This document shows, piece after piece, positions 8,346 through 57,420 of a stretch of 64,000 nt of DNA. The stretch is from Calditrichota bacterium (GTDB lineage: Bacteria; Calditrichota; Calditrichia; Calditrichales; Calditrichaceae). The notes below the pieces were generated by a model that saw nothing but the letters and a program-made list of their open reading frames with translations, was not told where the DNA came from and did not search any database. The position numbers and the translations under genes were made by a program. Position 1 is the first letter of the stretch. The number at the start of each line of letters is the position of its first letter. Location of the stretch: contig JAJRSO010000012.1 in assembly GCA_024278755.1 (NCBI GenBank), forward strand, positions 62,001 through 126,000, in the 5' to 3' direction.

Positions 8346-10082
8346 TTACATCCGCGCGGCTAAAACGACGGTTTTTTTATACTCCTCGTATATACCGCTG
8401 CGATCATCCAAAACCTGAACCAGAAGAATATAAATGCCCATCCGCAAGCGCTGCCCGGCGTCATTTTTTCCGTCCCAAACCGCCGAATAGGAAGAGCCGG
8501 CAAAAACATTTCCGCGAATGGTTCGCACATTGTGTCCGTTAATATCAAAAATCCGGATACGCAGACGGCCGGAATGCAGTGGGGATTTCAGTCGAATGAT
8601 CGTGTGATCTTCAAAACCGTCGCCATCGGGTGAAAAGGGGTCGGGATTGCAGAAAACTTTTAAATCGCTGTTCATTGCAATTGAAGTGAAAAGCGCGTTT
8701 TGCTTTGCCGGTGACGCCCCTTCCGGCGCGGTGCAGGGCCCCCAATTTTCTGACCGGCGGCAGTCCAATAGCGGATTAATGCGTTCCAGCGACGGCAGGC
8801 GCCACTCCTCGCCCTCGAGCCAATCGTTTTTATAGGGCACCTGTTCCACCCAGCCGCCGCCGGGATTGAGCAGGCACAGCACATCGCCGCTGTTATTTAA
8901 TGTTGGAAATCCTTTTATCGGAATCAACAGTGAATCCGGAATGGTATAAAACCCATCCAGCCCGCTATCGGCGGCAAACACTTTGTACTGCCCCGGGAAC
9001 AGATACACCATCGAATCGAGCCTGCAGGTATCTTTTGTATCCGCAATTTCCCAGCCGAAAAGATTTAACGCCTTGCCGCCATAATTATACAGTTCAATCC
9101 ATTCCGGTTCGTCTTCGGCCGTCAGAAATTTTATTTCATTTAGAACAACCGTTTCTTCATTTTCATATACAACAAGGTTTAGGAACGCCTTGTTGTTCAA
9201 CTCATTTCCATCGCTTTGTGATTCGATTGTCGCTGTAATCTGATAGATGCCAGCCTGGCCCGGAAACCAGTTGAACTCAAATAATATCATATCGTCGGGC
9301 GACAGATTTATTTTTTCGGTTTTAAGAGCTACCAGTTTTTCGGGCTTTCCTGTACTCGGTTCATGGCATAAATCCGCAAACAAACGCACACAAACAGAAT
9401 CGTCGAATACTCCTATGCCGCAGTTTTTAACCGGGATGCTAAAATGAACGGTATTATCCGTTTTAATCATTAGAGAAGGATGATATTCAATGGTTTTTTG
9501 CGACACACCCAAATCATATTCCCAGGGAGTTACTGAATTGCGGAATCCGGGCGTCCCGCCTAAAGTCAACCCGTCCGCCCAATTATCTGCATCATTTCCG
9601 TTTTCCAATATAATTTTTTCATCGGAATAGCCCTCTTTGTTGCCGATAGAATAACGATAGCTCTGAACCGTATCGCCCGCACTGTTCATCAGCAGCAGAG
9701 TTTCCGCTTTGGAATTACTCAGTCCGTTTGAGCCGAACGAATTATTATCGATTGTAATGATTAAAGCGCTATCTGGAATCACATCGTCATAGCGGGAAGA
9801 ATTTGCGAAATAGCTGCCGTCGAGAATCACGGCAAACCGGCGCGGAGCGAGCAGCATCCCGAATCCGGCGCTTACCAACAGGTCTGTTCCACTGCTGTCA
9901 CTGAACGTCCAGCCGCTTAAATCAACCGCTTCATTTTCAGACAGATTAAACAACTCGATGTATTCGTCCTGGTAGTCTGCGCCCTGCACATTGTACATCA
10001 CTTCACTGAAAACCAGTTGTGCCGAAATAATAAAAGGAAATAAAAAAATACTTAAACAAAATTTATTTAGATAGCTTATCAT
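8346..10082 (-). CDS. secreted lamin-tail-domain protein with C-terminal FlgD-like/sorting domain
   Basis: Begins with a signal peptide (ISYLNKFCLSIFLFPFIISA). Two lamin-tail-domain-like segments follow, one early (SEVMYN...DEYIELFNL...DLSGWTFSD) and one central (NEIKFLTA...EWIELYNYGG...LFGWEIADT), separated by a CARDB/Ig-like stretch. The C-terminal 100 residues (NPDPFSPDGDGFEDHTIIR...IFDINGHNVRTI...VWDGKNDAG) match the FlgD-Ig/T9SS-associated fold. It is probably exported and anchored at the surface; its substrate is unknown. The start overlaps the end of the preceding flavoprotein gene by 20 nt; an in-frame GTG at 10091 is an alternative start. Confidence 0.8.
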   Translation of the reverse strand: MISYLNKFCLSIFLFPFIISAQLVFSEVMYNVQGADYQDEYIELFNLSENEAVDLSGWTFSDSSGTDLLVSAGFGMLLAPRRFAVILDGSYFANSSRYDDVIPDSALIITIDNNSFGSNGLSNSKAETLLLMNSAGDTVQSYRYSIGNKEGYSDEKIILENGNDADNWADGLTLGGTPGFRNSVTPWEYDLGVSQKTIEYHPSLMIKTDNTVHFSIPVKNCGIGVFDDSVCVRLFADLCHEPSTGKPEKLVALKTEKINLSPDDMILFEFNWFPGQAGIYQITATIESQSDGNELNNKAFLNLVVYENEETVVLNEIKFLTAEDEPEWIELYNYGGKALNLFGWEIADTKDTCRLDSMVYLFPGQYKVFAADSGLDGFYTIPDSLLIPIKGFPTLNNSGDVLCLLNPGGGWVEQVPYKNDWLEGEEWRLPSLERINPLLDCRRSENWGPCTAPEGASPAKQNALFTSIAMNSDLKVFCNPDPFSPDGDGFEDHTIIRLKSPLHSGRLRIRIFDINGHNVRTIRGNVFAGSSYSAVWDGKNDAGQRLRMGIYILLVQVLDDRSGIYEEYKKTVVLAARM

Positions 10083-11352
10083 CCCGGGCACCGCCCTTTA
10101 GATTGAACAATAAACGAAAATAGAACGAGGGAGAACGCAGCCTGGCGCGCATATCCACATCGTTAAACATGGACGAAAAGGTTTCTTGCAAACGACTGTT
10201 GTTGTGCACACGATTGATAACAAAATTGAACAGCCAGGGAAGACGCACCAAGCGCTGAATATTATAACTTATCTGCAATTCCGACCAGAGATCGTCATAG
10301 AGCAGGCGATCGTACTGTTTTAAGGCGGCAGCGGAAAAATCATTGTTTTCTACCGCTTTTTTTAAAACGTTTGCCGCAAACTTTCCGCTGAGAATGGCAT
10401 TGCCAATTCCCTCCCCCGTGAACGGATCGATTAAAGCGGCCGCGTCACCGGTGAGCAGAAAGCGTTCGCCGGACAGAGCGCGTTTAACGCTGCCCAACGG
10501 CAGACGCCAGCCGTCTATGGAGCTGACGGGTCTGGCATTTTTAAATCGTCGGGCCAAAGCGGGATTTGTTTTTAAGGCCTTCTGAAACAGGGTTTTTAAA
10601 TGAATATTTTTATTTTTGATATCTTTACGCAATACGCCAATCCCCACGTTGGCCCGATTATTGGGAAGCGGGAAAATCCATAAATACCCGGGAAGGGCTT
10701 CCGGGATAAAATGCAGCTCGATAAAATTTTGCGGATGCATTTCACTGACATTTTCGTAGTACATGCGCAATCCGGCAAAAAGATGCTGCGACTGAATCTT
10801 CTGCCGGGCCAGTTTACGCGCGGTAAGAGAAGCGGTGCCACCGGCCCCGACAACCACCTTTGCAAAACAGTTTAATAACTTACCCTGCTTTTTCAGTTTT
10901 AAGGTCACTCCGCCGGACCGTTGTTCGACCTGTAATATCTCTGTTTCATGTTGGAAATTGGTAAAGCGCGGATCGATTTGCTTTAAAAAGAAATCGTCAA
11001 AATCCACCCGACGAGAGGTAAATCCCGGCGCATGTTTCAGATCGCGCATATCCTTTTTAAAGGGCAGTTCGATTCCTTTTCCGTTGGGTGCGATAAACGT
11101 GACTCCCCAGCTTGGTAAAAAACGTTCCGGTGCGGCGCTCATCTGTTCCACCAGTACCGGGTTTAATTCATTAAACAAACCGATGGTTTTTCCACTGAGT
11201 CCGTCGCCGCAGACCTTGTCCCGCGGGAACCGGGCTTTATCAAACAGGATATGCGGCATTCCTTCTTTGGCGAGAAATAACGCCGTACTCACCCCCGCAG
11301 GGCCTGCGCCAATAATGGCGATATCGGTTTTTAGATCGTATTTTTTCGGCAT
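10063..11352 (-). CDS. geranylgeranyl reductase family FAD-dependent oxidoreductase
   Basis: A 429-aa flavoprotein with the N-terminal FAD motif DIAIIGAGPAGVSTALFLAKEG, the PRDKVCGDGLSG segment and the second FAD motif LLTGDAAALIDPFTGEGIGNA. This is the pattern of the geranylgeranyl reductase/ChlP family, which saturates isoprenoid chains of menaquinones, lipids or pigments. The substrate cannot be read from sequence. The ribosome site is weak. Its 3' end overlaps the start of the lamin-tail gene, suggesting co-transcription. Confidence 0.85.
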   Translation of the reverse strand: MPKKYDLKTDIAIIGAGPAGVSTALFLAKEGMPHILFDKARFPRDKVCGDGLSGKTIGLFNELNPVLVEQMSAAPERFLPSWGVTFIAPNGKGIELPFKKDMRDLKHAPGFTSRRVDFDDFFLKQIDPRFTNFQHETEILQVEQRSGGVTLKLKKQGKLLNCFAKVVVGAGGTASLTARKLARQKIQSQHLFAGLRMYYENVSEMHPQNFIELHFIPEALPGYLWIFPLPNNRANVGIGVLRKDIKNKNIHLKTLFQKALKTNPALARRFKNARPVSSIDGWRLPLGSVKRALSGERFLLTGDAAALIDPFTGEGIGNAILSGKFAANVLKKAVENNDFSAAALKQYDRLLYDDLWSELQISYNIQRLVRLPWLFNFVINRVHNNSRLQETFSSMFNDVDMRARLRSPSFYFRLLFNLKGGARDDKLSK

Positions 11353-13198: not shown

Positions 13199-13627
13199 TT
13201 AAACTTTGGGAAGACGGTTCATAACCGTTATGATTTTTGCTGGATTTTCGGCCTTTCGGCTGGCCTCTTTTAGATAATGCTTAGATTTTTTTACATTACA
13301 ATACAGGTATAACATGGCAAGAGTCTCTAGGTATTCCAGCGATTTTTCACCCTCCTGCGATTTATGCTCCCATTCCGGAATCAATTCATTACAAGGGCAA
13401 TCGTCATAATAAATATCGGTATCGATTATAATATTCGGATTTTTTTCGATCAGCTCATAAAACAGGCTAAAGGCCTGTTCGATCCGCCCGGTTTGGATAA
13501 AACAAAGAATTAGTTTTTTCTTTATTTTATCCCCTTCCGGATTTTGAATCAGCGCTTCCTTTAAATAAGGAATGGCCTTATCGAACTGACGGGCTAAAAA
13601 ATATCTATTTCCAAGCATTTCGGACAT
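13199..13627 (-). CDS. small tetratricopeptide-repeat protein under a sigma-54 promoter
   Basis: A 142-aa protein made of about three helical hairpins of TPR type (GNRYFLARQFDKAIPYLKEAL, then LILCFIQTGRIEQAFSLFYELI, then a later helix pair near the C-terminus). An insert carries YYDDCPCNELIPEWEH with a CxC. There is no signal peptide. GAGG lies just before the ATG at 13627. A sigma-54 promoter lies within 40 nt upstream, with palindromic activator sites further up. The gene lies immediately downstream of a sigma-54 activator gene, which probably controls it. The binding partner is unknown. Confidence 0.8.
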   Translation of the reverse strand: MSEMLGNRYFLARQFDKAIPYLKEALIQNPEGDKIKKKLILCFIQTGRIEQAFSLFYELIEKNPNIIIDTDIYYDDCPCNELIPEWEHKSQEGEKSLEYLETLAMLYLYCNVKKSKHYLKEASRKAENPAKIITVMNRLPKV

Positions 13628-13649: not shown

Positions 13650-13666
13650 TGCAAAGTATATGCCAA
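13650..13666 (-). promoter_or_regulatory. sigma-54 promoter of the TPR gene
   Basis: Minus strand TTGGCATATACTTTGCA matches the YTGGCACGN4TTGCW consensus at every position except CG, with GG and GC exactly 10 nt apart. Transcription would begin about 12 nt downstream, giving a very short leader that still includes GAGG. Confidence 0.75.
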
Positions 13667-15468: not shown

Positions 15469-16824
15469 TTATTTATCTTCTTCTTCGAACTGGTGCAGTT
15501 TGTTGCGCAGGGTGCGCACGGTAATGCCCAGTAATTCGGCCGCTTTGGTTTTATGGTTGTGGGTCTCTTTAAGCGCCGAAAAGATCATCCGCTTTTCCAT
15601 TTCGGCCAGCGGCACCAGTGGCGTATTTTCCTCTTCGCCAGATACATCTTTCGGTTGATTCATTTCTAACACGACATGTTTATCAAGAATTACTTCATCT
15701 CTGGCCGAATAGAGAACCGCCCTTTCGATAAGGTTTTCGAGCTGGCGAATATTGCCAGGCCAGTGATAGGCGGTTAACCGTTGCATCGTTTCCGGAAGCA
15801 ATTCTTTTTTTTCAACCTTGTATTTTTCAGAAAAAACGGTTAAAAAATGCTCGATGAGCATCGGCAGGTCGTCCTTCCGCTCACGTAGCGGCGGTACGGT
15901 AAGGGGAAACACATTGAGCCGGAAGAAGAGGTCTTCGCGGAATTTGGATTCTCGTATAAGTTTTTCCACATCCCGGTTTGAGGAGGCGATAACGCGTACA
16001 TCGATGGGAATTTCAACCGTACTGCCCACACGGGTTACACGCATTTCCTGAATGACACGCAGTAGTTTTGCCTGCATGGAATAGGGGATTTCGGTAATTT
16101 CATCCAACAGCAACGTGCCGCCGTCACATTCTTCAAAAATCCCTTTTTGTGCTTTATAGGCGCCGCTAAAGGCTCCTTTTTCATGGCCAAAGAGTGTACT
16201 TTCGAACAGGGTTTCGGGAACTGCGGCACAATTTATTTTAAGAAACGGTTTCCCTGCCCGGCTACTGTTATCGTGTACCGCTTCTACGGTAAGCTCTTTT
16301 CCGGTGCCGCTTTCACCGCGAATAAAAACAGGGGCGTCGCTTTTGGCGACAATTTCAATATTGTAAATCAGTTCTTTCATGCCGGAACTGGAACCGATAA
16401 GCCTGGCTTGCAATTGATGATTCATCAGTCGCTGCTTTAGATTTTTATTTTCTTCTTTAAGAGATGAAAATTCAAAATAATGGGCCACCCTCGATTCGAT
16501 TTGGGCAATGGAAAACGGCTTTGTAATAAAATCATACGCGCCTGTTTTCATGGCATCCACGGCCGTTTCGATGGTACCATAGGCAGAAATCAAAAAGAAA
16601 CCGATATCCGGATACCTCTTTTTCGCTTCTTTAAGCAATTCATTCCCTTTAATGCCAGGCATCATTAAATCGGATATAATCAGATCAAACGATTCTGTAT
16701 TTAATATTTCCAGCGCCTGCTGCCCGGATTCTGCCACTTGCACTTCATATCCGGAGGAGGTAAGCGTTTCCTGCATTACAAGGCGTAAATGTTCATCATC
16801 GTCCACAACGAGAATTCGTCTCAT
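15469..16824 (-). CDS. NtrC-family sigma-54-dependent response regulator
   Basis: A 451-aa regulator: receiver domain at residues 1-120 with the phosphoacceptor in SDLMMPG (Asp52) and the conserved Lys in FITKPF; AAA+ domain with Walker A GESGTGKE and contact loop GAFSGA; and a C-terminal Fis helix (KTKAAELLGITVRTLRNKL). It is the last gene of the cheY operon, which begins with a sigma-54 promoter, so it may activate its own operon or flagellar genes, as FlgR/FleR do elsewhere. The ATG follows AGGT. The cognate kinase could be one of the hybrid kinases nearby, but this is not shown. Confidence 0.94.
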   Translation of the reverse strand: MRRILVVDDDEHLRLVMQETLTSSGYEVQVAESGQQALEILNTESFDLIISDLMMPGIKGNELLKEAKKRYPDIGFFLISAYGTIETAVDAMKTGAYDFITKPFSIAQIESRVAHYFEFSSLKEENKNLKQRLMNHQLQARLIGSSSGMKELIYNIEIVAKSDAPVFIRGESGTGKELTVEAVHDNSSRAGKPFLKINCAAVPETLFESTLFGHEKGAFSGAYKAQKGIFEECDGGTLLLDEITEIPYSMQAKLLRVIQEMRVTRVGSTVEIPIDVRVIASSNRDVEKLIRESKFREDLFFRLNVFPLTVPPLRERKDDLPMLIEHFLTVFSEKYKVEKKELLPETMQRLTAYHWPGNIRQLENLIERAVLYSARDEVILDKHVVLEMNQPKDVSGEEENTPLVPLAEMEKRMIFSALKETHNHKTKAAELLGITVRTLRNKLHQFEEEDK

Positions 16825-16908: not shown

Positions 16909-17490
16909 CTAAGAAGCGGTACCCTTTTGCCGGGCATATGAATTAAGCGCATCGGCATTTTTAATTTGCTTGGATCGGTTTTTTTCTTTGGAACCGAGTA
17001 CGATTCCGGCTTCTTCGGGACGAATCTGGTTTAAAAGATTTGTAAGACGCTCAACCTCTCCCTCCAGTTCGGTAATACGTTCGCGATACTGCAGGTTTTC
17101 CGCTTTAAGCTGAATTTCTTTTTGGGCGCGCTCCGTTAAAGAAACAACCTGATCGATGCGAAACGGCTTAATCATATAATGAAACGAATAGGCGCGCATC
17201 GCTTCTACGGCAAATTTAATATTATGATAGCCGGTCATTATCACAACAACAAGCGCATCGTCTTTTTTTCGTAATTCCTGACCCAGTTCGATTCCGGTCA
17301 TATAATTCCATCCTAAGTCCAAATCCAACAGGGCAAAATCCAGATAGCGGTGTTCCACCATTTTGAGTGCATCATCGGGATTGGAGGCGGCGATTACTTC
17401 GAACTTTTCCGCAGTGAGACCATCGTAGATCATTTCCAAAACATTGGGATCGTCATCCACTAATAGAATTGTCTTTTTCTGGTCGCTCAC
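16909..17490 (-). CDS. response regulator with receiver domain and C-terminal coiled coil
   Basis: A 193-aa protein. Residues 5-125 are a receiver (ILLVDDDPNVLEM, phosphoacceptor in LLDLDLG, Lys in MIKPFR). A predicted coiled coil (ITELEGEVERLTNLLNQI) and a basic, low-complexity tail follow. There is no DNA-binding domain. It starts with GTG at 17490 behind GGAAGAATAAC and overlaps or abuts the GAF gene stop. Probably a signalling adaptor in the chemotaxis/motility operon. Confidence 0.88.
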   Translation of the reverse strand: MSDQKKTILLVDDDPNVLEMIYDGLTAEKFEVIAASNPDDALKMVEHRYLDFALLDLDLGWNYMTGIELGQELRKKDDALVVVIMTGYHNIKFAVEAMRAYSFHYMIKPFRIDQVVSLTERAQKEIQLKAENLQYRERITELEGEVERLTNLLNQIRPEEAGIVLGSKEKNRSKQIKNADALNSYARQKGTAS

Positions 17491-17491
17491 G

Positions 17492-18460
17492 TTATTCTTC
17501 CATTAAATATATTTCTTCAAATAGTTTCATCCATAAACTACGGATGATATCGATAGCATTATCTCCAGATTGCGGATAACTGATACAGGTATATTTTAGT
17601 GTTAGCAGCGGAAGTGTTTCATCCAGTTTACAAATAGCATTCAGGCGGTTCTTCAATTCGCCTGCGAGGGTTTCCGCTTCAAATAGTCCGGCGCCGCTGT
17701 AAATAAAAAAAGCCGTATCGGCTGTTAACCAGATAAGATCGCCCTTGTCTGCAAGAACCTTATGGAATTCATGTTGGTAGTTTTTAACCGCATCTTCGAA
17801 GAGTAACGAATCGGTTAAGCTTTCACGGAAGACCAGTCGAAAAACGGAAAACGAGATGGGATTAAGCACCAGGCGGGCTTCATACACCCGGTCTTTAATT
17901 ATTTTACTGATAATATTTTCGAACGTATTAGAGGCCTTTTTAACCGGATCGAAGGTAAATAAAACGGGGCCTATTAATGTGCTAAACATGCTCAGGATTT
18001 GTTCGTCTTCCGGGGACAAAAAAGAGTGCGGCGAATCGCTCCCCAAAATAACAAACCCGATTAGTTTTTCGTGATAGCGCACCGGAAAGAAAAGTAGTTG
18101 TTGCAGTTGCGGGTCTGTGGCAATATTTTTTTCACCGATCTTTATATTCTGATTCAGAATTCGTACCAGAGTTTTTCCATCGCTGCTAAGTGTTTTTCCA
18201 TTTATCTGCTCAGTGGGAACAATTCTAAATGTATCACATAACGCATCGCTAAAACCACGTTTTCCGATAATACGATACTGCTCAAAAATATCATCCAATA
18301 CGGCAACACCGATATTTTTTAGTTTAAAGTATTCTGCGATTGTATCTAAAATCATATCCATTGCCAGTGATAAATCGTTTACCTGGTATAAAATGGATAC
18401 GATTTCGTAAAGCATTACACTGCGCTCGTTAACTTGTTTATTTAATTGTTTTAAACTCAT
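17492..18460 (-). CDS. GAF-domain protein with degenerate cyclase-like C-terminus
   Basis: A 322-aa cytoplasmic protein. The N-terminal 20-170 region has GAF character (AMDMILDTIAEYFKLKNIGVAVLDD, then QQLLFFPVRYHEKLIGFVILG). The C-terminal half (SFSVFRLVFRE...LIWLTADTAFFIY...AETLAGELKNRLNAI) has the secondary-structure rhythm of a GGDEF-like domain. The GG(D/E)EF signature is absent, so it should not make c-di-GMP. It lies between the FapA-like gene and a receiver gene. It may sense a small ligand, but none is indicated. Confidence 0.75.
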   Translation of the reverse strand: MSLKQLNKQVNERSVMLYEIVSILYQVNDLSLAMDMILDTIAEYFKLKNIGVAVLDDIFEQYRIIGKRGFSDALCDTFRIVPTEQINGKTLSSDGKTLVRILNQNIKIGEKNIATDPQLQQLLFFPVRYHEKLIGFVILGSDSPHSFLSPEDEQILSMFSTLIGPVLFTFDPVKKASNTFENIISKIIKDRVYEARLVLNPISFSVFRLVFRESLTDSLLFEDAVKNYQHEFHKVLADKGDLIWLTADTAFFIYSGAGLFEAETLAGELKNRLNAICKLDETLPLLTLKYTCISYPQSGDNAIDIIRSLWMKLFEEIYLMEE

Positions 18461-18493: not shown

Positions 18494-19912
18494 TTAATGA
18501 GAGGGAATGTAAATATCGTATTCACGATTTTCCATATCCAGTAAAGATTCGATAATAATCTCCCGCTTAAACCGGAATAGTTTTACTCCGTTTAAGGGCG
18601 CATCACATTGGTAGCCTACTCCGCTGATATCGATACTTACATTTTTATGTAGGGTTTTATGTACAACGATTTCCCTGGTAATTCTGGCCTGAGACGCGTT
18701 TTTCTGCAGGATTAATTCTTCACTGTTCAGAACCTCTATCTTTTTACGGACACGAGGTATCTCTTTTTTAATAAAATTTAGTTCCACAATCTTATCTGCC
18801 GATAAACCGTTCAGCCTTTCTTCGAGTACTTTTAAGAAGGATTTTCGTTTACTTAAACTGGATAAACGAATGGTGAGCTCCGAACGTTTACGACTGAGTT
18901 CCCACAAAGCATTTTGCGATTCATTTTCACCTTGTGTACGAATATGCAGTTCTGTGGGAGTCCCCCGGTCCGAACCGGCTTCGTTGATAATAATTCCTTT
19001 TTCGGCAGTAATGTTGCCGCCCCGGATCATACCTTCATTTTGTGAAACATTCACAACACCGCCGGCCGTCACACTGCTGTTTATAACATACCGCTGTACA
19101 ATAACATCTTTCCGAACGCCAATTACCGCATCCTGGATAAACCCGCACTTTAAATTTCCGCCGGCTAAAATTTTAGCTCTCCCCTTTCCAAGAACGCCAA
19201 AGTTAACGGTAACATCACCCTGGTGAGAGTACACTTTAGCCGCTTCCACATTACCGCCGATATAAATAGAGTCGCGTGCTTCCACCCAAAATCCGGAGAG
19301 AACATCGCCTTCGATTACAACCGGCCCGTCAAATTTAATATTGCCGGTCGCATAGCTGACATTTCCTTTAACATGATAAATTTTATCGACCTGAATCAGA
19401 TCGTTTTCAATAAATGCGCTGCCGCTTATATCGGCATACAGTGTGGAAGCGTCTTCAGAGAGACTCGTATTCCGGCCACTGGGCAAATCAATATCTTTTC
19501 CAAAAGAGGAAACCGGTTCTCCAAAAACCGATTTTCCGTCGGTGCCCGCCTGGGCAAAGGTTTTAACCGCCAATACCTGCCGGGCCTGTACGCTTTCCGA
19601 AAGATTCGTACGTTTAAAATCGACCCTGTCGGTACCGGGAATTTTAAAGGCTTCGTTTTCATTCAGTTTAATTTTCCATTCGATGGACGCATCTTTTCCG
19701 TATACAGGAGTAATCCCCCTGGCAATAAGGATTTTACGAACAGGTTCTTTTTTGTCGGTAATTTCTTTCAGCAGGGATGTATTTAATCCGAAAGAGATTT
19801 TTTTTTGGGCCATTAAATCCAACACTTCCTGATAGGAAGGGAAATCGGATTTATCGGCCTGAATGGTTAGATATGCTTCAACTTTATCATCGGAAAAATC
19901 AATTCGTATCAC
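18494..19912 (-). CDS. FapA (DUF342) family polymer-forming protein
   Basis: A 472-aa protein. An N-terminal FapA-type domain comes first, then a right-handed beta-helix region with repeated short strands (VKGNVSYATGNIKFDGPVVIEGDVLSG, then VEARDSIYIGGNVEAAKV), then a long coiled coil (SELTIRLSSLSKRKSFLKVLEERL) and a small C-terminal beta domain. FapA-like proteins are found in flagellar and chemotaxis loci of many phyla; their function is poorly known. It starts with GTG at 19912. A second paralogue lies at 21632-23095, on the other side of cheY. Confidence 0.85.
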   Translation of the reverse strand: MIRIDFSDDKVEAYLTIQADKSDFPSYQEVLDLMAQKKISFGLNTSLLKEITDKKEPVRKILIARGITPVYGKDASIEWKIKLNENEAFKIPGTDRVDFKRTNLSESVQARQVLAVKTFAQAGTDGKSVFGEPVSSFGKDIDLPSGRNTSLSEDASTLYADISGSAFIENDLIQVDKIYHVKGNVSYATGNIKFDGPVVIEGDVLSGFWVEARDSIYIGGNVEAAKVYSHQGDVTVNFGVLGKGRAKILAGGNLKCGFIQDAVIGVRKDVIVQRYVINSSVTAGGVVNVSQNEGMIRGGNITAEKGIIINEAGSDRGTPTELHIRTQGENESQNALWELSRKRSELTIRLSSLSKRKSFLKVLEERLNGLSADKIVELNFIKKEIPRVRKKIEVLNSEELILQKNASQARITREIVVHKTLHKNVSIDISGVGYQCDAPLNGVKLFRFKREIIIESLLDMENREYDIYIPSH

Positions 19913-19932
19913 GGTTATTTATCTCGATTAAA

Positions 19933-20220
19933 TCAACTGGCAACGCGGGCAGCATTCGGCTCATATTCAAATAGAATTTTGGCAACTTCACCGCAGGAAC
20001 ATTCGTATACAAAACCGATAATTTCGTCTCCTTCGATAAGGGGGAAAATATTGCCATCGTGTTTATGCATACTTTGGGAAACATTGGTATTAATTTTACA
20101 GGGTTGTCCGTATTCAATTCGATCGTTTTTTATTACCGAAGGAAGAGGCGTCTTTTTAGGAATCTGTTTGAAGATACTTCCGCCTGCATCGCTTACAAAA
20201 TCATTTGTCTGTTCTGCCAT
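19933..20220 (-). CDS. uncharacterised 95-aa protein with a CxC motif
   Basis: No family recognised. It is small and soluble. Its C-terminal half (IIGFVYECSCGEVAKILFEYEP) carries CSCG, and the middle holds a PCKINTNVSQSMHKHDGNIFP stretch with Cys and two His. This gives several possible metal ligands. GAGG precedes the ATG. It lies between cheZ and the FapA-like gene in one operon, so a chemotaxis/motility link is inferred from position only. Confidence 0.7.
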   Translation of the reverse strand: MAEQTNDFVSDAGGSIFKQIPKKTPLPSVIKNDRIEYGQPCKINTNVSQSMHKHDGNIFPLIEGDEIIGFVYECSCGEVAKILFEYEPNAARVAS

Positions 20221-20234
20221 TGTTCCATACCTCT

Positions 20235-20870
20235 TTATTTAAAAAATTTATCGATGGCATCCTGCGAAATTCCGCCATGATGCATTTTATCTTCTGTCTT
20301 TTCATTGAACTCTTGTCTCTTTGACGCATTCTTTTCTTCCACTTCATTTTCCAGGGCTTCCACTACATCTTTTCCCAGAACACTCTTTTCTTTAAGTTTT
20401 AACGAAGATTGAAAGAAAGAGATAAATTTTTCATAGATGGCTTCGAGAATACGGTTTACATGCTCAAGTTGTTGAGTCGTAATATCCTGGAACTGAAAAG
20501 CAAAAATTATCTCGCCCGCCTCCGAAGAGATTTCATCCACCTTGGCTAAACTCTCTTCACTTGCGCCTTCATCCTTTAAGCGTCCGCTCAAAGAATCTAA
20601 CTGTTCGCTTATGGTATCCAGTCTGTCCATTACATCATGAGCGGCCATTTCGGTGGCTTTGGAAACGCTGTTGATGTTCTGGGACGCCGTAGGTATTTTT
20701 GAACTGCTGTCTTTCATAAAAGAATTCACTTCGAGCATAAGAGGAATAATTTCTTTTACAAACAAAAACAAATCGCTAATTAATGGAAAAATTTCATCAC
20801 TCAAACGCAACGACTGATGCATTTCTTCAATTTTATTCAGCACATCATCAATATTTTTAATCTCAACCAT
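20235..20870 (-). CDS. cheZ: CheZ-type CheY-P phosphatase
   Basis: A 211-aa, almost fully helical protein. It carries the CheZ catalytic signature FQFQDITTQQLEHV (Asp and Gln spaced as D143/Q147 of the enterobacterial protein). After a charged linker it ends in a short CheY-binding helix (ISQDAIDKFF). CheZ hydrolyses phospho-CheY at or near the motor. It sits 15 nt downstream of cheY. CheZ was first known from proteobacteria, and remote members occur elsewhere; the active-site match makes this assignment firm. Confidence 0.88.
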   Translation of the reverse strand: MVEIKNIDDVLNKIEEMHQSLRLSDEIFPLISDLFLFVKEIIPLMLEVNSFMKDSSSKIPTASQNINSVSKATEMAAHDVMDRLDTISEQLDSLSGRLKDEGASEESLAKVDEISSEAGEIIFAFQFQDITTQQLEHVNRILEAIYEKFISFFQSSLKLKEKSVLGKDVVEALENEVEEKNASKRQEFNEKTEDKMHHGGISQDAIDKFFK

Positions 20871-20885
20871 GATTGTTCCCTTTAA

Positions 20886-21260
20886 TCAAACAGCAAAAAT
20901 TTCTATCATTTTTTTCTTTAATAATTCGGGCGTGAAGGGTTTTACCATATACCCGTTTACGCCGCTTTTAATCGCCGTCATAACATCATCTTCCATGCCT
21001 CGGGTGGTAATCATCAAAATGGGAACCGTTTTATATTTTTCCATTTTACGGATATGTTCCACCAGTTCCTGGCCATTCATTTCCGGCATATTCCAGTCGG
21101 TAAGAATCAAGTCAAACTCTTCCTTCTGAATTTTTTCCAAAGCATCCACACCGTTTTCCGCTTCGGTTGCATCTTTAATACCCAGTTTTTTTAAAGAATT
21201 GGCAATAATCCTGCGCATTGTTGGGGAATCTTCAACAAAAAGTATTTTTTTATCTTCCAT
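20886..21260 (-). CDS. cheY: chemotaxis response regulator CheY
   Basis: A single receiver domain (124 aa from the chosen start) with acidic pocket FVEDS, phosphoacceptor in LTDWNMPEMNG, Thr in MITTRG and Lys in MVKPF. It binds the flagellar switch when phosphorylated. The start at 21260 has AGGAG at good spacing; an ATG ten codons upstream lacks one. First gene of the cheY-cheZ-95 aa-FapA-GAF-receiver-NtrC operon, preceded by a sigma-54 promoter. Confidence 0.94.
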   Translation of the reverse strand: MEDKKILFVEDSPTMRRIIANSLKKLGIKDATEAENGVDALEKIQKEEFDLILTDWNMPEMNGQELVEHIRKMEKYKTVPILMITTRGMEDDVMTAIKSGVNGYMVKPFTPELLKKKMIEIFAV

Positions 21261-21631
21261 AAACCTGCTCCTGACAGACTTTTCGAACATTAAAAGTTTA
21301 TTTGTATTCCACTATACATATCGGTTGTTTTTCGTAATACTTCAGGACTTTTTGCAAGAAATATGCCATTTAAAAGTAACCGACGAAAGGTGTTTCATAC
21401 GGATTCTGACAGGACAGAACAAAAACAGCCTGTTTAAATAAATGTATAATATGAAACATTTTTTCGGATACAAGGAAAATTTTTCCGCTTGGCTCAAATA
21501 AACAACTCCACCGTAGGTTAAAGACACCGATTGAACGGTGCAATGGAATATCCGGAATGGTTAGAATCTTTAGCACAATCCAAGAAAACAGATCGGGATG
21601 GCTTACAAACGGGTACCGTATTTACCATCTA
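21261..21631. other. 370-bp leader and promoter region of the cheY operon
   Basis: No gene. It contains the sigma-54 promoter at 21353-21369. Further upstream are TGTTTC near 21389 and GAAACA near 21453, half-site forms of the palindrome seen at 13717. The gap separates cheY from the end of the second FapA-like gene. Confidence 0.45.
21353..21369 (-). promoter_or_regulatory. sigma-54 promoter of the cheY operon
   Basis: Minus strand ATGGCATATTTCTTGCA, with GG and GC 10 nt apart. It fits the sigma-54 consensus with the same TGGCATA core as the promoter at 13650. The start would be near 21342, about 80 nt before cheY. Confidence 0.75.
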
Positions 21632-23095
21632 TCAATAGCTTTTCAGTTTTTCAATGCGCAACTTTCCACTGTTTTCTTCTACCCAAATTCGAACGCGGTT
21701 TAGATCTTCCTTTATTTGCCGCGTCTCATTTGCCGCAAAAATAACAGTTCCGGCAGACAACGTACCGGTTACGATGAGTTCTACAGGCATCCGCTCTCTG
21801 GATTGTTTTTCAAAAAAAGAGATACGCATTCTGTCCTGAGCAACAAGGTCCGCTTGTTTTTCGTACTTTTCGATACGTTCTTTTAAAAGCGTAACTCCGT
21901 TTACCATACTGGTAAAATAACGGTTTAATATCACATCGCCGGGAATCATTCGGGGTGAAATCCGTTTGAGTTTTGTCAATTGAATAAGGGAGGCGGATTT
22001 GTCACTAAGCAGTTTTTCTTTTAGAAAGGTAATGTCCGCTTCCATATCCTGAATCCGTTTTACATGTTGCGTGTATTTACTGTACAGGTCTTTGCTTATC
22101 GCATCATCGATAAAATATGAACCGAGATAGATACGGCTGGAATCGCTTATATCGTGCGCATATATTTTATTTCCCGCCCTTACTTCCGACGCTCTTATCT
22201 GTGGCGCCGCTGCCGAGTGCAGGCACTGAACATTACTGTTCTCAATCACCGTTTCCGAAATGACGTATTTTCCCGCCCGGATGGTATAATTTCGAACCGC
22301 CCGTGTAAACACCGATTGTCCGGCCTGAGCTACAGAGATATCCATTTTTCGCGGATTATCGAATCCCAGCCGGCATTGAATATTACCGCTGGCCTCTATT
22401 TTAGAAGAACGAATCATTCCCTGTACAAGTATATTTGAAACGGTTTCCACATCCGATTCACTACGGATATCGGCTTCGACTTTCAGCGCTGATTCGTAAA
22501 ATATCCGGCCATGGGCTTTACCGGTGCTTTTAACCGAAGAAAGCGGATATACCGTCACCTCACCCATTGCGCTACGGCATGCGCATCCGTCAATCTCCGA
22601 GATAAGAGATGTTCCGTCTCTGTGCAGTTTTGTATTCTCAGCAGAAAGAAACGGAGAAGGATGGGTTTTTAATGCTTTGAGAATCTTTGACTTCCCGTCC
22701 GGATATTTCATTACCGTCTGCGGCGGTATGACCGTTTTAACAATGGTTTGCCCTTTTGATACAGGCTGAAGAAGATCCATCGGTTCGAAGACGCCGCTTT
22801 GCACCGCTTTAATTAAGGTTTCCGGAAGAATTTTCTTTTCAAATAAAAAGGCGACTTCTCCGGGGTCCTGTTCCGTATATCCTTCGGCCAGCGGTAGTTC
22901 GCCTGTTTCTCCGCTTTGCAACATGGAAATACAATGGTCTATGTATCCGCCTGTTATTCCGGCCCGCCTGAGTCCTTTTAACAATTCCGGTTTATATGTT
23001 TTTTCACCCCTGTATTCACCGCAAACCAATTTTCCGCCCATTAAAAAATGTAACTTAAGGGTTCCATTTTTTAACTCCACTGTATTAGTGCGCAT
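21632..23095 (-). CDS. second FapA (DUF342) family protein
   Basis: A 487-aa paralogue of the 18494-19912 product. It has an N-terminal region with a KGQTIVKTVIPPQ segment, a beta-helix core (MIRSSKIEASGNIQCRL), a coiled coil (KRIQDMEADITFLKEKLL) and a beta-rich tail. The beta-helix carries several cysteines (CACRS, NVQCLHS). Its ATG at 23095 overlaps the end of the pseudo-receiver gene by 11 nt, so they are coupled. Function is unknown; placement suggests a motility or polarity role. Confidence 0.8.
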   Translation of the reverse strand: MRTNTVELKNGTLKLHFLMGGKLVCGEYRGEKTYKPELLKGLRRAGITGGYIDHCISMLQSGETGELPLAEGYTEQDPGEVAFLFEKKILPETLIKAVQSGVFEPMDLLQPVSKGQTIVKTVIPPQTVMKYPDGKSKILKALKTHPSPFLSAENTKLHRDGTSLISEIDGCACRSAMGEVTVYPLSSVKSTGKAHGRIFYESALKVEADIRSESDVETVSNILVQGMIRSSKIEASGNIQCRLGFDNPRKMDISVAQAGQSVFTRAVRNYTIRAGKYVISETVIENSNVQCLHSAAAPQIRASEVRAGNKIYAHDISDSSRIYLGSYFIDDAISKDLYSKYTQHVKRIQDMEADITFLKEKLLSDKSASLIQLTKLKRISPRMIPGDVILNRYFTSMVNGVTLLKERIEKYEKQADLVAQDRMRISFFEKQSRERMPVELIVTGTLSAGTVIFAANETRQIKEDLNRVRIWVEENSGKLRIEKLKSY

Positions 23096-23576
23096 CGGGG
23101 GCCTGCTTATTTAGTATAATCTTTAATGTTCTCAACCATTCGGTTATCTCTTTATCCATCTTCTTAAATTCCTGTAACCGGGCATAGTAATCGGTATTTT
23201 TATCGGCTATTTCTGTAATATTTATAACTTTGCTCAGATAAGTAAAAACTTCATTTAGCGGCAGCGGTTTTTTTATATGACCAAAATATGGAAATGCTTT
23301 AGCTTCTACAAAACGGGGATCGTATGTGCGGGAATATAAAAATACGATGGGAACGGATTCCTTTTCTCCCTGTTGAAAGGATTCGAATAATTTATCAATA
23401 TGAACACTCCGCATTTCCACATTCGCAAAAACCATTAGTAGCTCTTTCGGATTAAGCGATTTAGCTCGAGATGGCCAGTTATGTACGACAACGGTTTCAA
23501 TCCCCAAAGCCGCACAAAACATGGTTAAAGCGTTAACCGTATTAAACTCTCTGTCAATAACCAATATCTTTTTCAT
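23085..23576 (-). CDS. degenerate receiver-domain protein
   Basis: About 163 aa from the chosen start. It has receiver-like secondary structure (KKILVIDREFNTVNAL at the start, HIKKPLPLNEVF with the conserved Lys-Pro). The phosphoacceptor strand reads LLMVFANVEM, with Asn where Asp is expected, so it is probably not phosphorylated. A C-terminal helix follows. An ATG 16 codons upstream (23624) is possible, but the domain starts at 23576. It is coupled to the second FapA gene by an 11-nt overlap. Confidence 0.75.
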   Translation of the reverse strand: MKKILVIDREFNTVNALTMFCAALGIETVVVHNWPSRAKSLNPKELLMVFANVEMRSVHIDKLFESFQQGEKESVPIVFLYSRTYDPRFVEAKAFPYFGHIKKPLPLNEVFTYLSKVINITEIADKNTDYYARLQEFKKMDKEITEWLRTLKIILNKQAPDAH

Positions 23577-34184: not shown

Positions 34185-35900
34185 TCAGCCCTTGAAAGGC
34201 GGGAGTTTACGATAATCTTTTCCTAAAAGAATAATAATGGCGCCGGAAGAGGACTGGTCAGAATCCGTCCATTCATAGGATACATTTAACAATTTTTCCA
34301 GTTCCAGTATCTGTTTTTGTTTAGGCTGACTGCCGATGAGCTTTGTTTTAGGCACTTTCCAGAAGAAACGGCCGTTTAGTATATAGTTATCGGTTTTATC
34401 AACCCTAAACTCTTTTGCCGTTAGATAAGCCGCTAATTGTTTTGCTATTCCTTTGATTCCCGCTCCATTTAAGATAACTATATGCAGCTGGGAAAAAGAG
34501 GCAATGGCCGGTTCCTTTTTAACATTCAGTAATAATGAATCCTCAGGGAAATAGAACAAACCGTCATTAAGAACGGAAGTAGCTTCCTGAAACCGCCCTT
34601 CTTTAATGGCCGATTGCGCCTGACGATAAAAATTGTATTTTATTTGGTCAATCCGGCTAATTGACAAAGAATCACCGGGACTTAATTTTAGCACTTTCCG
34701 GTAAAGCTCAAGGGCATTATTTCCCGGCGGCGATACAAAGAGGCGCATTTTAAACTTTGTATCGGCCTCCTGACGAAAAGCGGAAATAATTTTCTGCTTA
34801 AAGAGAACCTGCTCCGATTCTGTCTGCTGATTTTCTACGGTACCTAGATGTTCCAGAAAAGCGGGTAGTTTGTAAACCAGCAATAGAGCCAAAAATACAA
34901 CAATAATACTCCCGGTCATATATTTTAATGTGGGATTTAATGAAAAAAACCGAAAACGCCATTTTGTTTTTCTCTTTTTCTTTTTCTCTTTCTTCTCATC
35001 CGAAGGAATTGTTGTTTTTAATTCAGGTACGGAAGCGGGTTGTATTTTTCTTGGAGGCGCCGGCGTATGAATTTTTTCCAGCGCTGCTTTCATTTCAGCG
35101 CATTGCTGAAAACGATCCAGCGGATCTTTTGCCAACGCTTTTATGATAATTGCATTTAATTCCGGCTTGATATGAGAAACGGGCCGCGGTTTTTCCTGCA
35201 GGATCTGATGGTAAACGTCTCCGCTGAAAAAAGGCGGCTTGCCACCGAGCAAGTCGTACATGATTGCTGCCAGTGAATAAATATCCGAAGCGATGGAAAT
35301 CTGTTTGCCCAACAATTGTTCCGGCGACATATACAATACGGTGGTTTGAGGAATGGTGTCCCAAACGAGGCTGGTAGACTCCCGTAACGTTTCGGAAATG
35401 CCGACGTCAATTAATTTTACTTTTCCGTCGGGTGTCAGTACGACATTTTGTGGTTTCAGATCCCGATGTATTACATTATTATTATGAGCATATTCCAAGG
35501 CTTCCAGAATCTGAATAGCCAGCCATTTAACGCTATTTTCCGATAGACGATTTTCTTCGGATGTTACTTTTTTTTGACGAAGATTTTTACCTTTTACGTA
35601 TTCCAGCTCAAAATAGTGATACCGGCCTGTAGAGTGAAATTCATATAAACGGGCAATATGGGGATGGTTTAGCCAGCGGATAAGTTTTGCCTCGTCACGG
35701 ATATTGGCCATTGCTTCCGCGTCATTGGAAATGGAGTCCGGCACAAAAAGCAGTATTTTTTTCTCATTGCTTTGCTGGTCAAATACCAGATAGGCAATTC
35801 CAAAACTACGTTTCACCGGATTGCTGATAATCTCGAACCGCTCATCAATTATTTGTCCGCTGCCAAACCGCATCAAATGTTCGTCATAAAAGTTTTTCAT
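34185..35900 (-). CDS. degenerate Ser/Thr kinase-like membrane protein with LytR_C domain
   Basis: A 571-aa protein. Residues 20-285 have a eukaryotic-type kinase fold with catalytic loop VIHRDLKPQNVVL, APE-like YMSPEQLL and SDIYSLAAIMYDLLGG. However, the glycine loop reads NPVKRSFG, the beta-3 lysine of VAIK is replaced (KILLFVPD) and DFG is DVG. A transmembrane helix follows near 330-350 (YMTGSIIVVFLALLLVY), then a TPR-like stretch. The C-terminal LytR_C domain (LHIVILNGAGIKGIAKQLAAYL) would be outside the cytoplasm. It may be a pseudokinase that links the cell envelope to cytoplasmic partners. It lies between flagellin and selB. Confidence 0.85.
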   Translation of the reverse strand: MKNFYDEHLMRFGSGQIIDERFEIISNPVKRSFGIAYLVFDQQSNEKKILLFVPDSISNDAEAMANIRDEAKLIRWLNHPHIARLYEFHSTGRYHYFELEYVKGKNLRQKKVTSEENRLSENSVKWLAIQILEALEYAHNNNVIHRDLKPQNVVLTPDGKVKLIDVGISETLRESTSLVWDTIPQTTVLYMSPEQLLGKQISIASDIYSLAAIMYDLLGGKPPFFSGDVYHQILQEKPRPVSHIKPELNAIIIKALAKDPLDRFQQCAEMKAALEKIHTPAPPRKIQPASVPELKTTIPSDEKKEKKKKRKTKWRFRFFSLNPTLKYMTGSIIVVFLALLLVYKLPAFLEHLGTVENQQTESEQVLFKQKIISAFRQEADTKFKMRLFVSPPGNNALELYRKVLKLSPGDSLSISRIDQIKYNFYRQAQSAIKEGRFQEATSVLNDGLFYFPEDSLLLNVKKEPAIASFSQLHIVILNGAGIKGIAKQLAAYLTAKEFRVDKTDNYILNGRFFWKVPKTKLIGSQPKQKQILELEKLLNVSYEWTDSDQSSSGAIIILLGKDYRKLPPFKG

Positions 35901-37959: not shown

Positions 37960-38571
37960 TTAGAACATCGCGTCCCATGGCGCCAGCATAACCGGCTTCT
38001 GCTTAAGAATATTTTTTATTTTTTGTGAGACATATTTCTTCCGAACCACCAGACGGAACATATAAGCCTCAAACCATTCATCGGTCATAATCAGGTAGCC
38101 TTCGTGGCCGGCTTTGGCGCCCCAGCTATTTTCCAGCAGCCATTTCGAAATTTTTCCGAAAGCGGTAGTATCGATTCCCATCAATGCCATTCCATGCGAT
38201 GAGCCGCTGTCGAAGGTCAAAATACGCTCTTTTTTATTCATATTAAACGACACACCGAATACCGCAGCATAATCATATTGGTTCAAGGCCAGAATACCTT
38301 CGTCTTTATTTAACTGCTTGCCCACATCGCAGGAAAAATACATCGGATCGTCCGCTAAAATGGATTTCTTGGCAAATTGTTTGATTTCGGTCGAGGGTAT
38401 ATTTACAAAGGTCCAGTTGTGCCCGTCGTAGCGGTTCCGGTCGTATTTAATTTCATATAATTTATAGTATTCTTTGGACGGATCGTCCATCAGTTGGATA
38501 TAGTCCTGAAGCGTCCCTTCGACAAATGCGGCATAAAAAGTAAGAGGCGTGTATTCTTTAAGCATGCTCAA
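37960..38571 (-). pseudogene. pepC: aminopeptidase C (PepC/bleomycin hydrolase type), C-terminal part after in-frame TAG
   Basis: Same reading frame as 38587-39339, separated only by a TAG at 38587-38589 and five further codons (DKDGN). This part contains the catalytic His in GSSHGMALMGI and the Asn in LLENSWG. It ends MLAPWDAMF, typical of C1B peptidases. The apparent start is a TTG in the middle of the fold, so independent function is unlikely. It is intact enough to indicate a recent nonsense change, suppression of the amber codon, or a sequence error. Confidence 0.85.
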
Positions 38572-38586
38572 GTTTCCGTCTTTGTC

Positions 38587-39339
38587 CTAATAGCGCCAGG
38601 AAAAGGTTTTGGGCGGCGGTCCGAGACTAATCACCAAAATCCGGTATATTTCGGCCAGCATTCTTAGTTTTTCTTTGCGCAGGGTTTTTAGTTTTTTGCC
38701 TCTGGCCGAAAGGCTACGCAGCTTTAATCCGTGCTCACGGAGTTTGCGTTTCAGAATCCGCTGCATAAGACGGGTATTCTCACTGTTAAATGATTCGGCC
38801 ATGGCTTCTTTCGGGACTAAACCGTATTTGCCCACCAAATCGGTCATCATATTCCAAACCCCGCCATCACCGATGGGATTTTTAAACAGCCATTCCACTT
38901 CCCTATCCTTTAGCGGCTTCTTGCGACTGTCGATCACCGCTTCTAAAAAAAGGTTAGCCTTTTCAAACTGATCCCAGAAATATAGATAATTTTCCGAAAA
39001 CTCAAATGATTTTAAATGATATTTTTGAATGATCCGCGGACGAATGGTATTAAGCGCGGTAAACAACCAGCAGCGACCGGAAGATTTTTGATTGGTAATG
39101 CCTTTGGTTTTAATTCTATGTGCAAAATGAAAATCCAAGCCCTGAACGGCCTCCCGGTTAAAGGCCAGTTTATTTATGGCATTCCCCGATACGGCATGCA
39201 TCATTGCCCTGGTGTAGGTATCCATTTTTACGGACTTTTGGATTTGATTTAACTGCTCGATCGTAATGGCGCCGGGTTTATCTTTGGCTGTCAATAAACC
39301 GATGGTAATGATGAGTATGAATAGTATTTGTTTCCACAT
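38587..39339 (-). pseudogene. pepC: secreted aminopeptidase C, N-terminal part ending at in-frame TAG
   Basis: A 250-aa segment with signal peptide (MWKQILFILIITIGLLTA) and the C1B active-site Cys in GRCWLFTALNTIR, then SENYLYFWDQFEKAN. It ends KTFSWRY followed by TAG, at a point where family members read on (WxYxDKDG). Joined with the downstream part it gives about 459 codons, the usual length. A perfect GGAGG precedes the ATG. The stop is amber, not opal, so selenocysteine does not explain it. Confidence 0.85.
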
Positions 39340-55150: not shown

Positions 55151-56557
55151 CTATTTTACAGATAAAGCATCCAGCGAGATGATAAAACAGGTCCCGCCCG
55201 TGGGATTGTCTTGAATACTAATGGCGCCTCCCATGGCGGTGACAATGGATTGAACAAGCGGCAAACCGAGGCCAAACCCCGAAGGTGTTTTACTTTTACC
55301 GTCATCAAAGCGATAAAAGCGTTCAAAGATTTTCTCTTTTTGTTCAGCTGGGATTCCATAGCCCTGGTCGCAAACTTTAATAATCACTTTTTTATGCTCT
55401 AAAAAAGCCGATACCCGTACCGGACGTCCCGTATCCGAGTATTTAAAGGCATTGTTGATTAAATTTTGCATAACCATATAAAAGTATTCTTCATCTCCGC
55501 GTACATAAAGTCCGTTTTGCACTTCAATAAACAGTTCTTTCCGTTGAATTGTTTTATTCATGTTCTGGATAAGTTTCGATACATTTAGAACCGAACGTTC
55601 ATTTTGAATGGCATTGGCCTCCTTTGCCAGAATGAGCAGTGTGCGTACTATTTTAATCATACGATCCGTTTGTTCATACATCACCGTAAAAGTATCGCGG
55701 CAATCGGAATGTTCGTGCTGTTTACGCAGGATATATTCGAGCTCGCTTTTCAGTACGGTTAAAGGCGACATAAGTTGATGGGAAGCATTGTCGGTAAACT
55801 GTGAAATTTGTTCGATGTGTCTTTGTAGCCGATCGAATAAATTATTTAACGTATCCCGCAGGCGGCCTAATTCATCAGTGGGGCTGGCGTCATAATCGAG
55901 GCGCTGGTTAAGCTGCGTTGCCGAGATATTGTTTGCCAGATCTATTATTTTATTAATGGGAGCAAAACCTCTGCGTACCAGTACAAAACTTCCGAGCAAA
56001 ATTAAAATAAAAACAAATGGAAAGCTGAGCAGGTCATAAAAAATAAGATTGGGCATAAACTGAAAAATGTTTGCTTTTTGTGTTGCCAGCTGAATAATTA
56101 CATTCGACGTTTTGTTGTTCTCTTTTAGATAACCATAAATAACGCGTAAGGAGATCTCCCCCACGATAATCGTAGAAAACCTGTCGCGGGATTGCTTATG
56201 GGGAAAATAAAGAGGCAAATCGCCAATATATTTCAGGTTTTCGCTTTGTAGCAAAATCTCCCGGTTTTGATTATACACCTGTAAAAAAAAAGAGCTGGGA
56301 GAAACAACCGTCAGCGCGCGCTCTTTAAATTCTTTTGGGTTTTCGATGACCAGAGAATCACAATCGATACACAAGGCATTTTTTAAATGCTCAATTTCAT
56401 GTATTAGCTGGTTATCCCGTATTCGGGCGGCTTCGTGATTGATTATCAGCAAAAAAACAATATTCAGCGCAAAATACAATCCCGTAATAAAAAGCGTATT
56501 CCAAAACACATTGCGGACTATTGTGCGTGTTAAAACAGGTCTGTTATTCTTCATCAT
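55151..56557 (-). CDS. membrane histidine kinase with HAMP
   Basis: About 468 aa from the chosen start. The first transmembrane helix (LFITGLYFALNIVFLLI) is followed by a periplasmic domain of about 120 residues that contains CIDC. After the second helix (SFPFVFILILLGSFVLV) come HAMP, an H-box (NASHQLMSPLTVLK) and N- and G-boxes (NLINNAFKYSDTG, GFGLGLPLVQSIV). Its start overlaps the end of the response regulator gene; ATG pairs at 56557/56554 are favoured over the long form at 56581. It forms a two-component pair divergent from the octahaem cytochrome gene. Confidence 0.92.
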   Translation of the reverse strand: MMKNNRPVLTRTIVRNVFWNTLFITGLYFALNIVFLLIINHEAARIRDNQLIHEIEHLKNALCIDCDSLVIENPKEFKERALTVVSPSSFFLQVYNQNREILLQSENLKYIGDLPLYFPHKQSRDRFSTIIVGEISLRVIYGYLKENNKTSNVIIQLATQKANIFQFMPNLIFYDLLSFPFVFILILLGSFVLVRRGFAPINKIIDLANNISATQLNQRLDYDASPTDELGRLRDTLNNLFDRLQRHIEQISQFTDNASHQLMSPLTVLKSELEYILRKQHEHSDCRDTFTVMYEQTDRMIKIVRTLLILAKEANAIQNERSVLNVSKLIQNMNKTIQRKELFIEVQNGLYVRGDEEYFYMVMQNLINNAFKYSDTGRPVRVSAFLEHKKVIIKVCDQGYGIPAEQKEKIFERFYRFDDGKSKTPSGFGLGLPLVQSIVTAMGGAISIQDNPTGGTCFIISLDALSVK

Positions 56558-57218
56558 CGATAAAGGAATATCCTTCTCCATAGATTGTTTTGATATAATT
56601 TACGGAACCAAGCGCTTTTAGTTTTTTTCGCAGGTTCTTAATGGTAACTTCAATAAAATTAGTGTCGGGTAAAAAAGTTAGCTTCCACACATCTTCGGAA
56701 AGCTGCTCTTTTCCGATTATTAAATTTCTGTGTTCGACAAAATAGTGTAGCAATTCAAATTCCATTTCCGGCAGTTTTATCCTTTCCTCTCCGTTTTCCA
56801 GCGTGTGGGCAATCAAATCCAGCCGGAATTTACCAAAGGTTAATCTTTTCGATTTCGACCCGCTGCGCCGTACAACCGCCTTTAAACGGGCACAAACCTC
56901 GTCAAATGAAAAAGGTTTTGTTATATAATCATCCGCGCCTACTTCCAGGACTTCTACCTTTTTAGAAATATCGGTAAGGGCTGTTAGCAGAATAATCGGA
57001 ATTTGGTCGCCGTCATTCCGAAGCTGACGGCATACTTCAATTCCGCTACGCTTTGGCATACGCCAATCCAGCAACAGCACATCAAAACTATCCTTCTCAA
57101 TTTCTTCCAGAGCCGCCTCTCCGTCGGATGCGATTACTACAAAATGGCCTTCGCCGGTGAGATTTTTTTTTAAGGAAAGAGCAATCTGGGGGTCATCTTC
57201 AGCTATTAATATTTTCAT
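56544..57218 (-). CDS. OmpR-family response regulator
   Basis: A 224-aa regulator: receiver at 1-115 (ILIAEDDPQIALS, phosphoacceptor in LLLDWRMPKRSG, Lys in YITKPF), and a winged-helix DNA-binding domain at about 130-222 (RLTFGKFRLDL, then NFIEVTIKNLRKKLKALG, then YGEGYSFID). It is transcribed with the histidine kinase and divergent from the cytochrome gene across 200 bp, so the cytochrome is a plausible target. Confidence 0.94.
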   Translation of the reverse strand: MKILIAEDDPQIALSLKKNLTGEGHFVVIASDGEAALEEIEKDSFDVLLLDWRMPKRSGIEVCRQLRNDGDQIPIILLTALTDISKKVEVLEVGADDYITKPFSFDEVCARLKAVVRRSGSKSKRLTFGKFRLDLIAHTLENGEERIKLPEMEFELLHYFVEHRNLIIGKEQLSEDVWKLTFLPDTNFIEVTIKNLRKKLKALGSVNYIKTIYGEGYSFIDDEE

Positions 57219-57420
57219 AATTTTCTCTTTTTTATACTAATTTAATGCTTTTTTAGTAAAAGTCACCTACCGAAATATGAAAAAATTTTCATTATTGTTT
57301 GCTTTTTAGCAGCCGATGGTAGTTGTATATTAGACAAACTTTAATTTGAAATTTAAAAGTAAAACAAAATAATGAAATTCAGCGTTTAAATCATTCATCA
57401 AACTTCTTTGGAGGTATTCT

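Follow-up and report, generated by a model that had tools for sequence, protein, structure and literature searches.

Gene content of the locus

The window, i.e. the whole stretch of 64,000 nucleotides that was analysed, belongs to a Calditrichota MAG (G000, a draft of 79 contigs), and the region described here is a segment of a Calditrichota flagellum/chemotaxis cluster. On the minus strand, the genes for a degenerate receiver (pRec) and a diverged FapA protein (FapA1) are followed by a sigma-54-like site and then by cheY, cheZ, the gene for a small CxC protein, a second FapA gene (FapA2) and the genes for a GAF protein, a receiver-coiled-coil protein (RRcc) and an NtrC-type activator. Upstream of pRec lie a divergent histidine kinase gene, then HDOD and hybrid-kinase genes, and farther upstream a FlgM-like gene (recognised by eye), a FlgN-like gene and the genes for FlaG, FliD and flagellin. 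The flagellin gene is adjoined by a gene for a Ser/Thr kinase with a LytR_C-type C-terminal domain (34185-35900, minus strand), and this neighbour relation is kept in genomes G001 and G007. No RNA families were found between 12 and 36 kb of the window.

FapA2 (18494-19912, minus strand; 472 aa) is a canonical FapA protein, with matches to FapA_N (E 1.3e-32, 113 bits) and FapA (E 8.7e-53, 180 bits) far above the curated cut-offs of 27 and 31 bits. FapA1 (21632-23095, minus strand; 487 aa) matches the FapA domain only (PF03961, E 3.6e-15, 56.8 bits against the cut-off of 31). This domain is matched by 15 of 15 homologues, and FapA_N was not matched in the window protein and only weakly in two of the 15 homologues (best E 0.036). 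The FapA1 and FapA2 families nevertheless align over 446 columns including the N-terminus (hhalign, 99.6%), i.e. over the whole length, and FapA1 is therefore regarded as a diverged paralogue rather than as a different protein. The predicted structure of FapA2 (pLDDT 83) comprises beta repeats, two long helices (residues 331-367 and 372-411) and a C-terminal beta part; the model of FapA1 is poor (pLDDT 47, three input sequences) and has a similar layout of secondary structure. A plasmid search with FapA1 gave one weak FapA match and nothing else.

The gene for pRec (23085-23576, minus strand) overlaps the start of FapA1 by 11 nt and codes for 163 aa including a C-terminal extension. Its assignment as a receiver is based on a weak Response_reg match (E 0.0046), on the residues discussed below and on its adjacency to FapA1 in relatives. 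A candidate sigma-28 site upstream of pRec, judged by eye, was too weak to claim. FapA1 and cheY are separated by a gap of 341 nt, in which the sigma-54-like site (TGGCATATTTCTTGCA, 21353-21368, minus strand) is found. CheY (20886-21290, minus strand) was identified by PF00072 (E 1.1e-30), by CheY as best NCBIfam match and by alignment; its catalytic residues are kept, and the relatives suggest that translation starts at the internal Met of MEDKK. CheZ (20235-20870, minus strand; PF04344, E 1.2e-08, 35.5 bits against a cut-off of 30.7) carries the motif QDITTQ, the catalytic pattern QDxTxQ being present in the alignment of 10 relatives, and ends in a peptide of the CheY-binding type (SQDAIDKFFK).

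The CxC protein (19933-20220, minus strand) has 95 aa and an invariant CxCG, and it matched no Pfam or NCBIfam family. In a scan of 84,980 species genomes, which was pattern-based and of limited reach, it was found in Calditrichota only: nine of the ten loci are labelled Calditrichota, Calditrichia, Calditrichales, Calditrichaceae or Calditrichaeota, and the tenth, labelled 'Caldisericaceae', lies on a contig of a genome from the family of the window, so that this label is probably wrong. A plasmid search with CxC gave no match.

The remaining genes of the block code for the GAF protein (17492-18460, minus strand; PF13185, E 5.8e-07), which was also found in relatives and has a conserved C-terminal region of unassigned kind, RRcc (16909-17490, minus strand; PF00072, E 6.7e-20; kept in relatives) and the NtrC-type response regulator, a sigma-54 activator (15469-16824, minus strand; PF00158, E 2.5e-66, with PF00072 and HTH_8) that keeps its position at the end of the conserved block. 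Several relatives, among them family f2 and genome G009, encode a GAF protein with a receiver at its N-terminus (e.g. locus L088, 7282-8682, plus strand), a domain absent from the window protein. The initial annotation had described two FapA proteins, one of them coupled to a receiver without its phospho-Asp, together with cheY, cheZ, a CxC protein and a receiver-coiled-coil protein, and all of these were recovered, RRcc and the GAF protein lying outside the 18494-23576 interval that it covered. Its GAF assignment also stood, and the degenerate cyclase that it placed in the same protein was dropped, as GGDEF gave no match at E<=1 in 10 relatives and a profile search of the PDB listed essentially receivers.

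The site before cheY is an exact match to TGGCAYNNNNYTTGCW, of which the window contains two compared to 0.07 expected. It is common to G000 and G001, and variants (TTGGTATATGAATTGCA or TGGCAY-N5-TTGA) were seen by eye before cheY in G009 and in the g2 genomes. Sigma-54 control of the cheY unit is thus likely, given this site and the NtrC-type activator encoded at the end of the set. The second exact site (TGGCATATACTTTGCA, 13650-13665, minus strand) closely precedes a TPR gene (13199-13627).

Elsewhere in the window, we found a lamin-tail-domain protein with a C-terminal domain of the type IX secretion type (CHU_C; 8346-10091, minus strand) and, directly upstream of selB, a gene for a C1-like (bleomycin-hydrolase-type) peptidase (37960-39339, minus strand) that is broken by an in-frame codon at about 38587-38589. 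As this codon is TAG and not TGA, it is no selenocysteine codon, and a pseudogene, a sequencing error or recoding are the candidate explanations.

Conservation of the gene order and co-occurrence with flagella

Conservation of the neighbourhood in relatives had been set as a test beforehand, and the gene order is kept in many genomes, beyond what is expected by chance. Several relatives show a fuller order than the window. It begins with the genes for flagellin, a FliS-like protein, FliD and FlaG, followed by two small genes, the divergent kinase, pRec and FapA1, continues with cheA, an MCP gene, cheW, further MCP genes, cheR, cheB, cheD, a second cheY and cheX, and ends with cheY, cheZ, CxC, FapA2, GAF, RRcc and NtrC, after which basal-body genes come in some cases. 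In these relatives, cheX was named by Pfam and several other genes by reading translations and by similarity between loci. The block from cheA to cheX is absent from the locus in G000, G001 and G009, i.e. in the genus of the window and one related genus. As the longer form is known both from other genera of the family and from the sister family, the absence is taken as a probable loss in these genomes. The position of FapA1 beside cheY in the window thus follows from the missing block and is secondary. In most relatives with contiguous sequence, pRec and FapA1 head the cheA operon, which parts the pair from cheY, and in families f1 and f2 cheA is the next gene after the pair. Wherever the contig reaches far enough, pRec precedes FapA1.

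G000, G001 and G009, which lack the cheA block here, and G034, whose che operon is on a different contig, retain the pair as well, so that its persistence does not require cheA as a neighbour. FapA1 and CxC are present in G034 and G036 in the absence of a FapA_N protein. In G020 (contig C67, about 56019-57340), an internal stop codon divides FapA2 into two open reading frames, which may reflect decay of this copy or a fault in the assembly. Other CheA genes exist in the genome of the window: the CheA encoded on contig C27 (locus L087, 4463-7732, plus strand) has several CheW-like domains, and its gene lies in a che cluster, with a small STAS-like gene before it, whereas the CheA of contig C35 is very large. 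Contig C27 also bears basal-body genes, at no great distance from this cluster, and a FlhF-like gene (137 bits, below the curated cut-off), and its CheA may be the flagellar CheA of the genus.

We used FliD as a marker of flagella and found it in 22 of the 40 genomes of the class. The search with FapA1 matched 18 of the 40, one of them (G023) only via its FapA2, which leaves 17, and CxC was found in the same 17 and in G023. FapA1 thus occurs in 17/22 FliD-positive and 0/18 FliD-negative genomes (Fisher 3e-7) and agrees with CxC in all 22 FliD-positive genomes (Fisher 4e-5), whereas FapA_N does not track CxC comparably (p 0.21); as these tests ignore shared ancestry and the gains or losses are few, the figures are a guide only. 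G023, which has no FliD match and is 88% complete, carries cheY, cheZ, CxC, FapA2, GAF and RRcc on a short contig. The conserved neighbourhood and the tracking of flagella support a flagellar role. The link to flagella suggested by the initial annotation is thereby borne out, and so is the existence of a conserved set; its centring around cheY and cheZ is not, since the pair of pRec and FapA1 heads the cheA operon in most contiguous relatives and the FapA_N protein is absent from G034 and G036. FapA itself is an already described flagellar protein.

The pRec-FapA1 pair and its possible role

A phosphorylatable receiver requires the phospho-acceptor Asp and an acidic metal-binding pair; in pRec of the window, the Asp is replaced by Asn and the second acid of the pair by Arg. 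Across the family, most members have Asn as phospho-acceptor, one has Ala and those of f2 have Asp; at the second acidic position, all members that cover it have Arg, Lys or Asn. Since four f2 receivers keep the Asp, loss of phosphorylation is not established for all members. Between G000 and G001, both pRec (pN 0.19, pS 0.71) and FapA1 (pN 0.21, pS 0.79) are under purifying selection and change faster than CheY, with synonymous sites near saturation. As the receiver fold is kept while its chemistry decays, and FapA1 is always next to it, pRec would most simply be a binding partner of FapA1. The gene orders upstream of other FapA genes fit this suggestion: in other families of Calditrichota, FapA is immediately preceded by a REC-HisKA-HATPase gene (L096, 8817-10010, minus strand; L095, 4751-5947, plus strand), and in Haliovirga a receiver gene and a gene for an ATP-binding, kinase-like protein precede FapA. 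The REC-HisKA-HATPase pairs resemble our locus in the receiver-bearing gene directly upstream of FapA, but encode a full receiver-kinase there instead of a short degenerate receiver such as pRec.

We favour, with a probability of roughly 0.55, a form of FapA-dependent flagellar assembly or polarity that was elaborated in Calditrichota and in which pRec serves as a phosphorylation-independent adaptor of FapA1. The duplicated proteins FapA1 and FapA2 would support assembly of the flagellum and probably its placement, and pRec, having a receiver fold and most likely no part in phospho-signalling, would act as a constitutive adaptor for the binding or placement of FapA1. The neighbouring NtrC-type activator appears to govern CheY, CheZ, CxC, FapA2, GAF and RRcc as a single unit through sigma-54. 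The FapA proteins might contact CheY or CheZ, and a physical complex or polar scaffold may be formed.

A possible though less probable reading is ordinary co-regulation, i.e. that separate flagellar and chemotaxis genes are held in a superoperon and share no assembly. Clusters of flagellar and che genes are common, the clostridial operon with FapA discussed below being an example, and the adjacency of FapA1 and cheY is secondary in the window. However, no break between pRec and FapA1 was seen, and FapA1 and CxC come and go as a pair; both observations speak for a partnership of some kind between members of the set. Such a partnership could go further than we propose: pRec, FapA1 and CxC might make up a Calditrichota-specific, CheA-independent complex, in which the dead receiver and CxC place a flagellum-siting FapA scaffold that gathers the CheY/CheZ switch and so stand in for the inputs by HubP and EIIA-Glc in Vibrio, a version that we consider doubtful.

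The position directly before cheA in f1 and f2 would also be expected if pRec and FapA1 were head genes of a CheA chemosensory array and, for instance, placed that array. We think this unlikely, as the pair persists without the cheA block in G000, G001 and G009 and with the che operon elsewhere in G034, though other CheA systems could take over in these genomes. The receiver fold, the loss of the catalytic residues and the chemotaxis locus would furthermore suit a mimic or decoy of CheY competing for binding to CheZ or to the motor switch; with 18% identity between pRec and CheY, and with the pRec gene linked to FapA1 and not to cheY in relatives, this is very improbable.

Comparison with known FapA systems

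In Vibrio, FapA has a role in assembling the flagellum at the pole (PMC12918733), to which it is recruited by HubP, and is linked to glucose via EIIA-Glc (PMC12918733, PMC6877527). The Calditrichota proteins share the family name, the domain and the connection to flagellar assembly with those of V. vulnificus and V. cholerae (VCA1085), and a tblastn search with FapA2 retrieves FapA genes of the Vibrio group. Calditrichota differs, however, in having two FapA copies within flagellar/che operons, one of them with a degenerate receiver, whereas FapA lies away from che genes in annotated replicons of the Vibrio group; adjacent VCA numbers had pointed to a linkage of FapA and che in Vibrio, which these replicons do not show. 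EIIA-Glc was found above the cut-off in none of the 40 genomes of the class, and the C-terminal domain of FimV, of the HubP/FimV landmark, was matched in G000 (32.3 bits) and in none of five relatives. As the two partners are not generally detectable, a direct transfer of the mechanism from Vibrio is not warranted.

FapA also belongs to flagellar superoperons around FlgV, where it stands beside sigma-28 and flhF-flhG modules (PMC11607428). The fla/che superoperons of Clostridia and Borrelia with this FlgV module resemble our locus in that FapA stands beside che and flagellar genes. The clostridial operon that we examined, from Acetoanaerobium, comprises flagellar export genes, flhF, flhG, cheB, cheA, cheW, cheC, cheD, a probable sigma-28 gene and FapA, the genes without a similarity match being named by reading. 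The linkage of FapA to che genes is therefore not new in itself, but this operon has a single FapA and lacks cheZ, CxC and pRec. Among proteins with beta-helices, some FapA1 members match MinC_C (best E 2.9e-06) and one matches bactofilin (0.039); the FapA matches are far stronger, and FapA, in contrast to these, has a long coiled-coil hairpin.

The gene set is thus a lineage-specific variant of known flagellar machinery and not a new type of machine. Particular to the Calditrichota locus are the doubled FapA, the partner pRec and the CxC protein, and a literature search, which left out most subscription journals, found no publication describing such an arrangement. FapA accompanies flagella in many bacteria, yet it is poorly understood: sequence searches of the PDB gave no credible chain related to FapA, and a Foldseek search of the PDB with FapA2 gave no match at E<=0.001 (best E 0.79, mostly coiled-coil). 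The two FapA copies in defined operons, the constant pairing of FapA1 with a degenerate receiver and the co-inherited CxC protein offer a handle on the binding and control of FapA.
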